From Solirubrobacteraceae bacterium (GTDB taxonomy: Bacteria > Actinomycetota > Thermoleophilia > Solirubrobacterales > Solirubrobacteraceae): 64,000 nucleotides of DNA. The translations under genes and the position numbers were made by a program. Shown one piece after another: positions 59,711 to 64,000 of the stretch (its first letter is position 1; every line of letters starts with the position of its first letter). The notes under the pieces were generated by a model, which ran no database searches, was not told where the DNA came from, and saw nothing but the letters and a program-made list of their open reading frames with translations. The DNA lies in the NCBI GenBank assembly GCA_016463765.1, contig JAEMQS010000014.1, forward strand, positions 1 to 64,000, in the 5' to 3' direction.

Positions 59711-59815
59711 CGCCCTAGGGTTCCGCTGCTGGCCACACAGCAGGACAGGTCCGAGAGGGCAGGCCGGCACCACACATAGCCGCGCCCACACGGAGGGACA
59801 AAAGCCCGGGAGATC
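59711..59815 (+). promoter_or_regulatory. Guanidine-I (ykkC) riboswitch aptamer
   Basis: The conserved blocks of the ykkC type 1 aptamer occur in order: CCTAGGGTTCCG (59714-59725), a hairpin CTGCTG...CAGCAG, GGTCCGAGAG (59748-59757), and ACACGGAGGGACAAAAGCCC followed by GGGAGA. Guanidine-I RNAs bind guanidinium and turn genes on. The CCGAGAG and AAAAGCCCGGGAGA forms differ from the ppGpp- and PRPP-binding ykkC variants as I remember them, so guanidine is the likely ligand. It precedes a hydrolase-transporter operon. Confidence 0.9.
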
Positions 59816-59830
59816 TTTGATCTGCCGGGC
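59804..59830 (+). terminator. Riboswitch terminator, sharing the aptamer 3' strand
   Basis: GCCCGGGAGATC (59804-59815) pairs with GATCTGCCGGGC (59819-59830) with one G-G mismatch around TTT, followed by ATTTCGCGTTTCT. The left arm is part of the aptamer, so ligand binding would prevent terminator formation, making an ON switch. Confidence 0.75.
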
Positions 59831-59843
59831 ATTTCGCGTTTCT

Positions 59844-60466: not shown

Positions 60467-62286
60467 CCGGCACCGGCCCCGTCCTCGACGTGCAGGACCT
60501 GCACGTCACGTTCGCCTCCTCGGGCGGCGACGTCCACGCGGTGCGCGGGGCGTCGCTGCAGATCGCGCCCGGCGAGGTCGTCGGCCTGGTCGGCGAGTCG
60601 GGGTCCGGCAAGAGCGTGCTCGGCCTGACGGCGCTTGGCCTGCTGCCGCGCAAGCCCGAGCCGCGCCTGGAGGGCGTCGTGCTGCTCGACGGGCTCGACA
60701 TGATCACCGCGACCGACGAGGACATGCGCGCCCGGCGGGGCACCGACATCAGCGCGGTCTTCCAGGACCCGATGGGCTCGCTGAACCCGTCGATGCGGAT
60801 CGGCGCGCAGGTCGCCGAAGCGGCGGGCGGGGCAACCGACGAGGAGGTCGCCGAGATGCTCGCGGCCACCGGCATCCCGGAGCCCGAGCACAAGGCGCGC
60901 GCCTATCCCCACGAGCTGTCCGGCGGCCTGCGCCAGCGCGTGATGATCGCCATGGCGCTGTCGCGCCACCCCAAGCTGATCATCGCCGACGAGCCCACCA
61001 CCGCCCTCGACGTCACCGTCCAGGCGAAGGTCCTCGACCTGCTCGCCGCCGCGTCGCGCGAGCGCGGCGTCGCGCTGCTGCTCGTCACCCACGACCTGGG
61101 TGTCGCCGCGCGCATCTGCGACCGGATCGCCGTCGCCTACGCCGGGCGGATCGTCGAAGAGGGGACCGCGGCGCAGCTGCTCCAGCAGCCACACCATCCG
61201 TACACCGTCGGCCTGCTCGCCAGCCGCCCGCGCCTGGACGGGTCGATCGCCGGCGGGGACCTGCCGACCCTGCCTGGTCGCCCGCCGGACCCCCGGCTGC
61301 CGCTGGCCGGCTGCGCCTTCGCGCCCCGTTGCCCCGCGGCTGACGCGCAGTGCGCCGGCCCGCTCGCCATCCACGTCAACGGCGAGCGCCGCAATGAGTG
61401 CCACCACCCCGGCGTCCTGACCCGCTGGCCCGAGGGCGGCCCGCACGCCGGGCGCCGCGACCCCATCCTGCTGAAGGCCCCGAACCCGGTCGTCGCCCCC
61501 GCGATGGTGCGGGGCGTGCCTCCCGAGCCGGCCGTCGTCGTCCGCGGTGCGGTGCGCGAGTTCGAGCGGCCCAAGCCGTTCCCGTTCGCCAAGCGGCCGG
61601 CGCCGTTCACGGCCGTCGCGGGAGTGGACCTCGAGGTGCCGCACGCCGGGTCGGTGGCGATCGTCGGCGAGTCGGGCTCAGGCAAGTCGACGCTGCTGCG
61701 GATGATCGTCGGGCTCCTCGAGCCGACGGCCGGTGACGTGACGCTCGGCCCGGGCGCGCCGCCGCAAATGATCTTCCAGGACGCCGGCGCGTCGCTGACG
61801 CCGTGGATGCCGATCGGCAAGCAGATCGAGGAGCGCCTGGCCGCGCTCGACGTGCCGTCGTCCGAGCGCGGCGCACGGGTCGCCGCCACGCTGGAGGCCG
61901 TCGGCCTGCCCGCCGAAGCGCAGACCGCGGTCCCCCGCGCGCTGTCCGGTGGCCAGCGCCAGCGCGCGGCGATCGCGCGCGCCATCGCCGTCCCGCCGGC
62001 CCTGCTGGCGTGCGACGAGCCGGTCTCCGCTCTCGACGTCTCCCTCGCCGCGCAGGTGCTGAACCTGCTCTGCCACCTGCGCGAGACGCTCGACATCGCG
62101 CTGCTGTTCGTCACCCATGACCTGGCAGCGGCTCGGGCGGTCGCCGACGAGGTCGTCGTCATGCAGCGCGGCGAGATCGTCGAGCGCGCGGCCACCGAGG
62201 ACCTCTTCACCGACCCGCAGCACCCGTACACCCGGGAGCTCCTCGCGGCGGTGCCCGAGATTCACGCGATGGCGGTGCCGGCATGA
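60463..62286 (+). CDS. Fused two-domain ABC ATPase, DppD-DppF type
   Basis: A 607-residue protein holding two complete nucleotide-binding domains that are usually separate subunits. Domain 1 has GESGSGKSVLG, FQDPMGSLNPS, LSGGLRQRVMIAMAL and IADEPTTALD, and ends with the oligopeptide C-terminal motif GCAFAPRCPAAD. Domain 2 (from about residue 350) has GESGSGKSTLLRM, FQDAGASLTPW, LSGGQRQRAAIARAI, CDEPVSALD and THDLAAARAVAD. It powers uptake by the permeases and the lipoprotein that follow. GTG start overlapping the hydrolase stop; overlaps the next start by 4 bases. Confidence 0.95.
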   Translation: MTGTGPVLDVQDLHVTFASSGGDVHAVRGASLQIAPGEVVGLVGESGSGKSVLGLTALGLLPRKPEPRLEGVVLLDGLDMITATDEDMRARRGTDISAVFQDPMGSLNPSMRIGAQVAEAAGGATDEEVAEMLAATGIPEPEHKARAYPHELSGGLRQRVMIAMALSRHPKLIIADEPTTALDVTVQAKVLDLLAAASRERGVALLLVTHDLGVAARICDRIAVAYAGRIVEEGTAAQLLQQPHHPYTVGLLASRPRLDGSIAGGDLPTLPGRPPDPRLPLAGCAFAPRCPAADAQCAGPLAIHVNGERRNECHHPGVLTRWPEGGPHAGRRDPILLKAPNPVVAPAMVRGVPPEPAVVVRGAVREFERPKPFPFAKRPAPFTAVAGVDLEVPHAGSVAIVGESGSGKSTLLRMIVGLLEPTAGDVTLGPGAPPQMIFQDAGASLTPWMPIGKQIEERLAALDVPSSERGARVAATLEAVGLPAEAQTAVPRALSGGQRQRAAIARAIAVPPALLACDEPVSALDVSLAAQVLNLLCHLRETLDIALLFVTHDLAAARAVADEVVVMQRGEIVERAATEDLFTDPQHPYTRELLAAVPEIHAMAVPA

Positions 62287-63164
62287 GTGCCATCACCCGT
62301 GTCGGCGGACCCGCGTCGCGCATGTGGCGCGGCCGCCCGGCACTCAGCCCCGGCGCCCTGAAGGGCGAAACCGTCTGGCACGCGCTGATCCCGGTGGCCA
62401 TCCTCAGCCTCGTCATTCTCATCGCGCCGGTGCTCGCGCCGTACGGCGGCACCGATGTGAACCCGGTCGGCGCCCTGCAGTCACCGTCCCCCGACGCGTG
62501 GTTCGGCACCGACGAGATCGGGCGCGACGTCTTCAGCCGGATCCTCATCGGCATCCGCACGTCGTGGTTCGCGGCGCTCGGGGTCATCCTCCTCGGCACG
62601 ATCATCGGCGGCCTCATCGGCGCCATCGCGGGTGCGTTCGGCGGCAAGGTCGACATGGTCCTGATGCGCATCACGGACCTCTTCCTGTCACTGCCCGCAC
62701 CGGTCCTGGCCATCGCCGTCATCGCCGCGATGGGCCCCAGCCTGCGCAACACGCTCATCGCCCTGAGCATCGTGTGGTGGCCGTGGTACGCCCGCATCGT
62801 GCGCGGCGAGGTCCGCGCGCTCGCCGCGCGACCGCACGCCGAAGCCGCGCAGCTTGCGGGCGTCAGCCGCACGCGCCTCGTGCTCAAGCACCTCCTTCCC
62901 GGCGCCGCGGCGCCGGTGATCGTGACGATGTCGCTCGACGTCGGAAACCTCATCCTCGCCCTGGCCGGCCTGTCGTTCATCGGCCTCGGCGCACCTCCGC
63001 CCGCGCCCGAACTGGGAGCCATGAGCGCGCGCGGCCTGCAGTACCTGTTCGGCCACCCCTGGGTGCCGATCGCTCCCGCCGCCGCCGTGGCGCTCCTGGC
63101 GCTCGCGGCAAACCTCCTCGGCGACGCCATCAATCGCCGGCTCGACCAAAGGACCACTCGATGA
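62283..63164 (+). CDS. ABC transporter permease, DppC/OppC type
   Basis: A 293-residue inner-membrane permease: N-terminal helix, DppC-type GTDEIGRDVFSRILIGIRTSW segment, four to five further helices and the EAA loop (AEAAQLAGVSRTRLVLKHLLPG). With the fused ATPase and the binding lipoprotein it forms a dipeptide/oligopeptide-family importer. The partner DppB-type permease is not in the window and may follow the binding protein. The start overlaps the ATPase stop (ATGA). Confidence 0.93.
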   Translation: MSAITRVGGPASRMWRGRPALSPGALKGETVWHALIPVAILSLVILIAPVLAPYGGTDVNPVGALQSPSPDAWFGTDEIGRDVFSRILIGIRTSWFAALGVILLGTIIGGLIGAIAGAFGGKVDMVLMRITDLFLSLPAPVLAIAVIAAMGPSLRNTLIALSIVWWPWYARIVRGEVRALAARPHAEAAQLAGVSRTRLVLKHLLPGAAAPVIVTMSLDVGNLILALAGLSFIGLGAPPPAPELGAMSARGLQYLFGHPWVPIAPAAAVALLALAANLLGDAINRRLDQRTTR

Positions 63165-64000
63165 CCCGCAGGACCACCACGCTGCTCGCGGTGCTCGCCG
63201 CGGGGGCCCTGGCCGTCACCGGCTGCGGCTCCGCAGAGAAGACCGACTCGGCATCCAGCTCGTCGGGGGACAGCAAGACGCTGCGCATCCCGTACCTGGC
63301 CGACATGTCCGTGCCCGACCCCGATGTCTTCTACGACATCGAGGGCAACGGCGTGATCCTCAGCCAGTACGAGGGCCTCCTGAAGTACAAGGCGGGCACG
63401 CTCGACATCGAGCCGAACCTCGCCACCGAGTACGAGGTCTCCGACGACGGCAAGACCTACACGTTCACGCTGCGCGACGACGTGACGTTCCACTCCGGCC
63501 CGAAGATGACGTGCGACTCGGTGAAGGCCGCGTTCCAGCGCCGTGTCGACGTCGACCAGGCCCCCGCGTGGATGCTCGCCGACGTCAAGTCGATGACGTG
63601 CGAGAACGCCACGACGTTCGTCATCGAGCTGAAGAACAAGGTCACGCCGTTCCTGCACTACATGGCATCGAGCTGGGGCCCGAAGGTCGTCGGCCCGGAG
63701 GCGATCGAGACGAATGCCGGCGACGACTTCGGCCAGACGTTCCTGGAGACCAAGGGCGACGGCACCGGCCCGTACAAGCTGTCCTCGTTCAAGCGCGGCA
63801 GCGCGTACACGCTGACCAAGAACGCCGAGTACTGGGGTACGCCCGCGAACTTCGAGGAAGTAATCCTCTCGATCACGCCCGACATGGGCACGCAGCGCCT
63901 GAAGCTCGAGAAGGGCGACCTCGACGTCATCCTCCACGGCTTCCCGGCGTCCGAGCTGGAGTCGCTGCCCGACAGCGTCACGGTCGAGAAGCAGGACTCG
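63161..64000 (+). CDS. Dipeptide-type solute-binding lipoprotein, truncated by window end
   Basis: At least 280 residues, open to the window end. The lipobox LAVTGC gives a lipid-anchored Cys after a signal peptide. The mature sequence has the SBP family 5 layout: LRIPYLADMSVPDPDVFYD, ILSQYEGLLKY, PNLATEYEVSDDGKTYTFTLRDDVTFHSG and GTGPYKLSSF. It captures substrate for the transporter. The usual ligands are peptides, but riboswitch control suggests a guanidine-related compound. ATG overlaps the permease stop by 4 bases. Confidence 0.93.
   Translation, partial: MTRRTTTLLAVLAAGALAVTGCGSAEKTDSASSSSGDSKTLRIPYLADMSVPDPDVFYDIEGNGVILSQYEGLLKYKAGTLDIEPNLATEYEVSDDGKTYTFTLRDDVTFHSGPKMTCDSVKAAFQRRVDVDQAPAWMLADVKSMTCENATTFVIELKNKVTPFLHYMASSWGPKVVGPEAIETNAGDDFGQTFLETKGDGTGPYKLSSFKRGSAYTLTKNAEYWGTPANFEEVILSITPDMGTQRLKLEKGDLDVILHGFPASELESLPDSVTVEKQDS

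Follow-up and report, generated by a model that had tools for sequence, protein, structure and literature searches.

Guanidine carboxylase operons controlled by guanidine-I riboswitches carry, as described in two published accounts, genes for the carboxylase, CgdAB, AtzF, and an ATP-binding cassette (ABC) importer (PMC12186494, PMC12508155). Guanylurea hydrolases that have been tested are isochorismatase-like hydrolase (IHL) proteins whose product passes to guanidine carboxylase, CgdAB, and AtzF, according to another report (PMC9800807). A review states that guanidine and urea carboxylases are told apart by one residue, Asp or Asn, and that the natural source of the guanidine sensed by riboswitches is still open (PMC12186494). 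Here we describe an operon from a Solirubrobacteraceae bacterium (contig JAEMQS010000014.1, 81 kb; the analyzed window is its bases 1–64000) in which a guanidine-I riboswitch is followed by an IHL gene, an ABC importer, and the genes of the carboxyguanidine pathway. We favor, with a probability of roughly 55%, the reading that guanidine induces this operon, which serves a Svornostia-like thermoleophilian for nitrogen scavenging and in which IHL provides an ATP-free entrance to the carboxyguanidine pathway.

A guanidine-I riboswitch heads an extended carboxyguanidine operon

An earlier note on this DNA had proposed a guanidine-I riboswitch followed by genes for an IHL enzyme, a fused ATPase, a DppC permease, and a family-5 lipoprotein, and had regarded the whole as a different guanidine-nitrogen module. 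The features of the locus are as follows, with those outside the window given in the same numbering.

59704–59814, + strand: guanidine-I riboswitch aptamer (RF00442 covariance-model match)
59804–59830, + strand: candidate expression-platform hairpin, terminator-like with a weak U tract, beginning within the aptamer 3′ helix
59858–60466, + strand: isochorismatase-like cysteine hydrolase (IHL; PF00857, 131.6 bits)
60463–62286, + strand: fused DppD-DppF-type ATPase of the ABC importer, GTG start (ABC_tran and oligo_HPY, two stretches each)
62283–63164, + strand: DppC/NikC-type permease (BPD_transp_1)
63161–64723, + strand, running past the window end at 64000: family-5 solute-binding lipoprotein (SBP_bac_5, 228.2 bits for the whole protein)
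64728–65729, outside the window: DppB
65744–66454, outside the window: CgdA (UAAP1, 284.5 bits, cut-off 205.95)
66451–67146, outside the window: CgdB (UAAP2, 315 bits, cut-off 284.7)
67143–69035, outside the window: carboxyltransferase, 630 aa (CT_A_B and CT_C_D)
69032–70753, outside the window: allophanate hydrolase AtzF (695.3 bits, cut-off 511.05)

Pfam matches and coordinates confirm the predicted genes, including the 4-base overlaps at each of the three junctions inside the window, and the first protein indeed passes the PF00857 test for the isochorismatase-like family. The importer, which had been called dipeptide-type, has its full complement of a family-5 binding protein, two BPD_transp_1 permeases, and an oligo_HPY ATPase, and is best described as dipeptide/nickel type. 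The proposed module holds in that IHL and an importer do lie under the riboswitch, but not as something apart from the known pathway, since the operon extends past the window to position 70753 with DppB, CgdA, CgdB, the carboxyltransferase, and AtzF. CgdA, CgdB, and AtzF are encoded together, each above its NCBIfam cut-off. Because these genes and the carboxyltransferase gene follow just outside the window, the operon is an extension of the carboxyguanidine pathway, with an importer and IHL placed in front and a partial rewiring, and is no new kind of system.

The RF00442 model matches the aptamer over its entire length (model positions 1–107 of 107), scoring 76.1 bits where the gathering score is 63 (E 7.9e-13), and no other Rfam family matches this stretch at E ≤ 1. 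The predicted riboswitch class therefore withstood the covariance check that the earlier note had suggested, whereas its proposed start did not, because the aptamer begins 7 bases earlier, at 59704. This is the sole Rfam match at its cut-off within the 64-kb window, and RF00442 occurs as a single copy in the 4.57-Mb assembly (89% complete).

The hairpin at 59804–59830 shares the last helix of the aptamer and would compete with it. Six of 200 shuffles of this stretch fold equally well, and the pairs are kept in seven to nine of nine actinobacterial copies, with a pairing arm present in most copies. Support from covariation was rejected, as two-sided changes occur in 0 of 9 pairs, and a consensus scan called neither a terminator nor a sigma-70 promoter. 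By analogy with its riboswitch class, the switch is predicted to be turned on by guanidine.

Weaker RF00442 matches below the cut-off (loci L010, L011, and L012, about 1501–1635, − strand; 54.6, 45.4, and 36.9 bits) have changed core letters and lie upstream of genes for an EamA transporter (genome G342) and TauE/SafE transporters (G310 and G157). These elements perhaps represent another ykkC subtype.

Three Caulobacteraceae operons with IHL instead of a carboxylase

The gene order is IHL-CgdA-CgdB-AtzF in Asticcacaulis benevestitus, Caulobacter sp. D5, and Caulobacter hibisci. The Asticcacaulis CgdA, CgdB, and AtzF proteins score above their NCBIfam cut-offs, and the three genomes yield no carboxyltransferase match at E ≤ 1e-30. 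Among 189 Caulobacteraceae genomes, seemingly the same set for both counts, CgdB is present in 30, and in 27 of these a biotin carboxylase (BC) gene follows CgdB directly. The remaining three have AtzF after CgdB and IHL before CgdA, and IHL is found in exactly these 3 of the 189 genomes (3/3 versus 0/27, Fisher p 2.5e-4, the three having been reached through their IHL). Because the CgdB proteins of the 27 are 79 to 85% identical to that of C. hibisci, carboxyguanidine is expected to be the same CgdB substrate in both groups.

The plain reading is that IHL supplies carboxyguanidine in these three species, for which the removal of ammonia from carbamoylguanidine (guanylurea) would suffice. These relatives suggest that IHL is able to take the place of the first, energy-costly step of guanidine degradation, and lend indirect support to the earlier proposal that the enzyme removes an amide or urea nitrogen from a guanidine derivative.

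IHL also occurs near guanidine-I operons in two Rhodobacterales, a Paracoccaceae metagenome-assembled genome (MAG; locus L059) and Palleronia aestuarii (L063), whose riboswitches score 80.8 and 66.2 bits. The importers of these operons appear TauABC-like by eye, and IHL itself is not behind the riboswitch. Their ureohydrolases are GdmH-like, with best PDB matches to 7esr/7oi1 (E 8.6e-165 and 4.2e-159), of which 7esr is, we assume, the guanidinase Sll1077. Free guanidine would be the substrate in this setting, which fits because carboxyguanidine is described as readily decaying to guanidine and CO2 (PMC8390497).

A carboxyltransferase lacking biotin carboxylase carries a changed residue

Urea carboxylase of Kluyveromyces lactis contains a carboxyltransferase domain with which the 630-aa carboxyltransferase of the operon aligns over nearly its full length. 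The operon protein is not a single-chain guanidine carboxylase, as its Pfam matches are confined to CT_A_B and CT_C_D, it reaches 757.6 bits against a urea_carbox cut-off of 1303.85, and its reading frame holds no match to BC or to biotin carboxyl carrier protein (BCCP). The gene overlaps both neighbors by 4 bases and takes the same form in related genomes, and is therefore not a broken frame. Moreover, the ratio of nonsynonymous to synonymous substitution rates (dN/dS) for the Met-type carboxyltransferase (see below) is 0.14 to 0.24 within the genus, in the range of neighboring genes, and this purifying selection indicates that the gene is in use. A fold model (predicted local distance difference test, pLDDT, 36) came from a three-row alignment and was not used.

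The substrate-determining position, 251, is occupied by Met, whereas Asp is present in all 17 aligned Cgd-linked reference rows. This column is unique in the alignment in having Asp in all 17 Asp-type rows included and Asn in both Asn-type rows. Carboxyltransferase loci were drawn from a phylum sample (17 loci in 16 of 396 genomes) and a sample of the class Thermoleophilia (41 of 399 genomes); 25 of the latter were classified, and the other 16 match domain halves only, like single PxpB/PxpC-type subunits. Carboxyltransferase-only proteins in the 25 classified genomes have Met251 (12 genomes), Ile (four), or Asp (two: G160 and G394, the latter on a contig that ends close to the gene), and BC-fused proteins with Asp make up the remaining seven. 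The 17 phylum loci comprise five BC-fused Asp enzymes beside CgdAB (one in class genome G043), two BC-fused Asn enzymes with no CgdAB in the stretch, six carboxyltransferase-only Asp enzymes beside CgdAB (family f35), one divergent enzyme with Ala (G493), and those of the window, G017, and G077. A tree of 36 rows places G493 in one well-supported group with the rows that have Asp or Asn. The Met/Ile rows fall outside this group and do not make up a single clade, and four changes are required on the tree to account for the carboxyltransferase-only label. The Asp of the GLGD motif (position 478), presumably catalytic, is retained in 15 of 16 Met/Ile rows, and the sixteenth row ends before the motif.

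The f35 enzymes (L136–L139, L143, and L144, from another actinobacterial family) have no BC in the stretch examined and are probably split guanidine carboxylases.

Between two and six BC-domain genes lie elsewhere in each of eight genomes examined; a dedicated BC-BCCP partner was neither found beside the carboxyltransferase nor identified among these genes. Given that no BC gene adjoins the carboxyltransferase, carboxybiotin would come in trans. Met/Ile carboxyltransferases without biotin carboxylase pose a second puzzle beside the substrate of IHL, that of a split enzyme or a new substrate. Two rival accounts of the operon take up these possibilities.

In the first account, the operon carries out ordinary guanidine assimilation: the importer takes up guanidine, the carboxyltransferase uses it together with a BC-BCCP subunit that an acyl-CoA carboxylase provides in trans, and IHL has a secondary activity, such as one on a by-product. 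BC-containing proteins in all eight genomes are consistent with this, and the Asp enzymes beside CgdAB in the six f35 loci, G394, and G160 make a split enzyme seem workable. Also in its favor, the riboswitch, CgdAB, a Met-type carboxyltransferase, and AtzF occur without IHL at E ≤ 1e-40 in G081 and G370. However, the Asp that marks guanidine carboxylases is replaced by Met or Ile. This account also gives no role to IHL, the first gene of the operon and one absent from most other sampled genomes, and leaves the Caulobacteraceae operons without carboxylase unexplained. We consider ordinary assimilation unlikely.

In the second account, the Met/Ile carboxyltransferase has a new acceptor, such as an amide, an N-substituted urea, or a substituted guanidine, and works in sequence with IHL on a compound other than a simple guanidine, so that guanidine is merely a by-product sensed by the riboswitch. 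The residue at position 251 is hydrophobic in 16 of the 25 classified class genomes, the GLGD Asp is retained, the gene is under purifying selection, and relatives of IHL occur in non-guanidine settings. Yet CgdAB and AtzF score above family cut-offs, pointing to carboxyguanidine and allophanate, and the riboswitch-bearing genomes are without exception of the Met type. We regard this account as very unlikely.

IHL accompanies the riboswitch and Met/Ile carboxyltransferases in Thermoleophilia

The reading of IHL as an entrance to the carboxyguanidine pathway is also consistent with its distribution. In the class sample, 16 of 399 genomes have IHL at E ≤ 1e-40. These include 12 of the 16 genomes with a Met/Ile carboxyltransferase versus 4 of the 383 others (Fisher p about 1e-16) and versus 1 of 9 Asp-type genomes (p 0.004), with kinship ignored in both comparisons; the Asp-type genomes G160 and G109 are among those without IHL. 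The gene is situated with Cgd genes in 10 of the 12. It heads the operon in five, one of them G280, where a contig break intervenes; it immediately precedes CgdA in G386 and immediately follows AtzF in G107, G017, and G077; and in G190 it is on the opposite strand at a distance of 2.6 kb. The IHL gene of G236 and G087 is located away from the Cgd genes. At L221, 3158–4592 (G190), a TauE/SafE transporter gene immediately precedes a second IHL copy.

RF00442 matches are present in 8 of 399 class genomes above the cut-off and in 11 at E ≤ 0.001, all within the family of the window. All eight genomes above the cut-off encode a Met-type carboxyltransferase.

The full order riboswitch-IHL-ATPase-permease-lipoprotein-permease-CgdA-CgdB-carboxyltransferase-AtzF recurs in Svornostia abyssi (G260), G248, and Paraconexibacter antarcticus (G356). 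The same operon in G280 is divided between two contigs that both end inside it, and a Solirubrobacterales MAG (L060) has the riboswitch, IHL, and importer as far as its contig end. Six loci (the window, L055 from S. abyssi, L056, L057, L058 from P. antarcticus, and L060) begin with aptamer, IHL, and ATPase, and chance is therefore excluded. The nearest named genome among those scanned is that of S. abyssi J379 (Thermoleophilia, Solirubrobacterales), whose IHL is 98% identical. Locus L056 (CAMCUD010000006.1), with an IHL 92% identical to that of the window, comes from a genome in the genus of the window that is titled a Bifidobacterium breve MAG and is probably mislabeled.

A shorter arrangement exists in G081 and G370, where the riboswitch stands immediately before CgdA-CgdB-carboxyltransferase-AtzF and the IHL and importer genes are not there. 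No IHL was found in G081 at E ≤ 1e-40, so carboxyguanidine must arise otherwise in that organism, and its having the riboswitch and carboxyltransferase nonetheless shows that the latter has a role of its own.

In G356 and G280, DppB and CgdA are separated by an additional gene, which encodes a metallo-beta-lactamase fold. Genes of this kind neighbor Cgd genes or IHL in two Solirubrobacterales as well as two Rhodobacterales, with about 35% identity between the groups:

L017, 11176–12099: metallo-beta-lactamase-fold gene
L219, 2907–3809: metallo-beta-lactamase-fold gene
L059, 11331–12113, − strand: metallo-beta-lactamase-fold gene
L063, about 11340–12248, − strand: metallo-beta-lactamase-fold gene

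No relatives were found at E ≤ 1e-12 in the window or in the other stretches longer than 5 kb that were searched, and a more distant relative lies near IHL in Rhizobium (L155). The enzyme possibly performs a ring-opening or ester-cleaving step ahead of IHL; we do not count its gene as part of the operon core.

Family membership and the range of IHL substrates

Residues D13, K104, and C137 of IHL, which we take to be the Asp-Lys-Cys catalytic triad, are invariant in five close relatives. Its fold model (pLDDT 88) resembles maleamate amidase, RutB, N-carbamoylsarcosine amidase, and triuret and biuret hydrolases at Z 23 to 26 in all cases. Naming the substrate by fold comparison was therefore rejected, as several amidohydrolases are equally close. 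Identification as a biuret hydrolase was likewise rejected (61.1 bits with the BiuH NCBIfam equivalog against a cut-off of 370). The IHL subfamily (33 rows) shares a GRE(L/T)-DG-like motif and a KRRYS motif, both of which are missing from the guanylurea hydrolase BB_00025 of plasmid pMET-2, which we infer to be the "cysteine hydrolase" at 20653–21288 of that record. An apparent gap in identity from 53% to 31% in one scan arises partly from its peptide patterns, as other searches recovered members at 45 to 50%.

Several observations weigh against IHL as an entrance to the carboxyguanidine pathway. Its identity to the tested guanylurea hydrolase BB_00025 is no more than 31%, and family membership consequently does not settle the substrate. 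The subfamily tree does not join the guanidine-linked members, and relatives in Streptomyces, other Rhodobacterales, Rhizobium, and Gloeocapsopsis lie among nitrile hydratase, RidA, and phosphotriesterase-like genes. Streptomyces and G231 pair IHL with the same importer and have no Cgd genes in the stretch. The one-contig assembly of G081 has the riboswitch, CgdAB, a Met-type carboxyltransferase, and AtzF with no IHL at E ≤ 1e-40, and a Caulobacter MAG (G766) holds both IHL and carboxylase pieces, contrary to strict exclusion. The three Caulobacteraceae operons, moreover, may share one origin event. IHL may act on a broader amide/carbamoyl class, or its substrate may vary between settings.

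The Streptomyces locus (L152, 4510–13427, on a plasmid of Streptomyces sp. NBC_00564) encodes an importer of the same kind and an IHL that is 63% identical. Genes for two phosphotriesterase-family proteins and RidA come next, and beyond these are genes for aldoxime dehydratase and carbon-nitrogen hydrolase. Keyword searches of the literature returned no paper joining guanidine, riboswitch, and isochorismatase, and those for ykkC with isochorismatase returned only papers that are unrelated by title.

The importer and the neighboring ureohydrolase

A third rival account takes the ABC system for a nickel importer that serves a divergent arginase-family enzyme. Several importer proteins have best NCBIfam matches with nickel names (the lipoprotein matches NikA, the permeases Opp2C and Opp2B), the score of the ATPase exceeds the NikD cut-off, and an arginase-family guanidinase is described as using nickel (PMC12186494). 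The nickel models of the lipoprotein and permeases, however, remain below their cut-offs. In the Paraconexibacter stretch, no arginase-family gene was detected next to the operon; the product of this gene in the window is nearest to guanidinobutyrase and guanidinopropionase, and the importer also accompanies IHL in the absence of Cgd genes (G231 and Streptomyces). We judge a nickel importer highly improbable.

An arginase-family ureohydrolase gene lies divergent to the operon, within 57999–59585 (− strand), and adjoins the operon also in G248 and G260. As a guanidinase it was rejected, since its best PDB matches rank guanidinobutyrase and guanidinopropionase ahead of 7esr/7oi1. The gene overlaps a PIN-domain gene (58958–59323) by 4 bases, and a short open reading frame without a Pfam match precedes the latter; the two could be a toxin-antitoxin pair placed ahead of the ureohydrolase gene.

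Proposed mechanism

In the mechanism that we propose for the ATP-free entrance, the guanidine-bound aptamer would keep the overlapping hairpin from forming and so switch on the operon, and the dipeptide/nickel-type importer would take up a guanidine derivative. IHL would then cut an amide or carbamoyl bond of this compound to yield carboxyguanidine, part of which would decay to guanidine, the inducer. CgdAB would deiminate carboxyguanidine to allophanate, and AtzF would split allophanate to ammonia and CO2. IHL would serve in place of or beside a guanidine carboxylase, and the carboxyltransferase subunit with its altered substrate-selecting residue, if active, would borrow carboxybiotin from a BC-BCCP protein encoded elsewhere.

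IHL probably hydrolyzes a carbamoyl- or acylguanidine that has been imported, giving carboxyguanidine or guanidine. The simplest candidate for this compound is guanylurea, although we see the odds as leaning against its being the physiological substrate. A broader claim, to which we give slightly less than even odds, is that IHL has taken over from the ATP- and biotin-dependent carboxylase as the way into CgdAB-AtzF, fully so in the three Caulobacteraceae, and that the Solirubrobacterales carboxylase has been cut to a carboxyltransferase subunit with a new acceptor. If such replacement is true, natural carbamoyl- and acylguanidines would be nitrogen sources, and there would be a new route to free guanidine. 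If IHL does release carboxyguanidine or guanidine from a derivative taken up by the cell, this would point toward a class of precursors that occur in nature.

Comparison with known systems

Like the described guanidine carboxylase operons, the operon unites a guanidine-I aptamer, an ABC importer, CgdA, CgdB, and AtzF. It differs from those operons in its dipeptide/nickel-type importer, in having IHL as its first gene, and in retaining only the carboxyltransferase domain, with Met for Asp. The mgdH/mgdL system for methylguanidine of Vreelandella boliviensis, as outlined in PMC12508155, similarly joins a guanidine-I carboxylase operon with enzymes that turn a guanidine derivative into guanidine; there the extension consists of a dioxygenase and a lyase, whereas here it is a single cysteine hydrolase. 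GdmH guanidinase operons share guanidine-I control, and the same IHL subfamily adjoins them in two Rhodobacterales, but their nickel ureohydrolase hydrolyzes guanidine directly and the L059 and L063 loci have no Cgd matches. The closest enzymes described are GuuH of P. mendocina GU and BB_00025 of P. mendocina MET, IHL proteins that feed guanidine carboxylase and the CgdAB-AtzF pathway in the account given in PMC9800807. BB_00025 is reported there to be plasmid-encoded and its pathway chromosomal. The IHL of the window differs from BB_00025 in sequence (31% identity) and in its subfamily signature.

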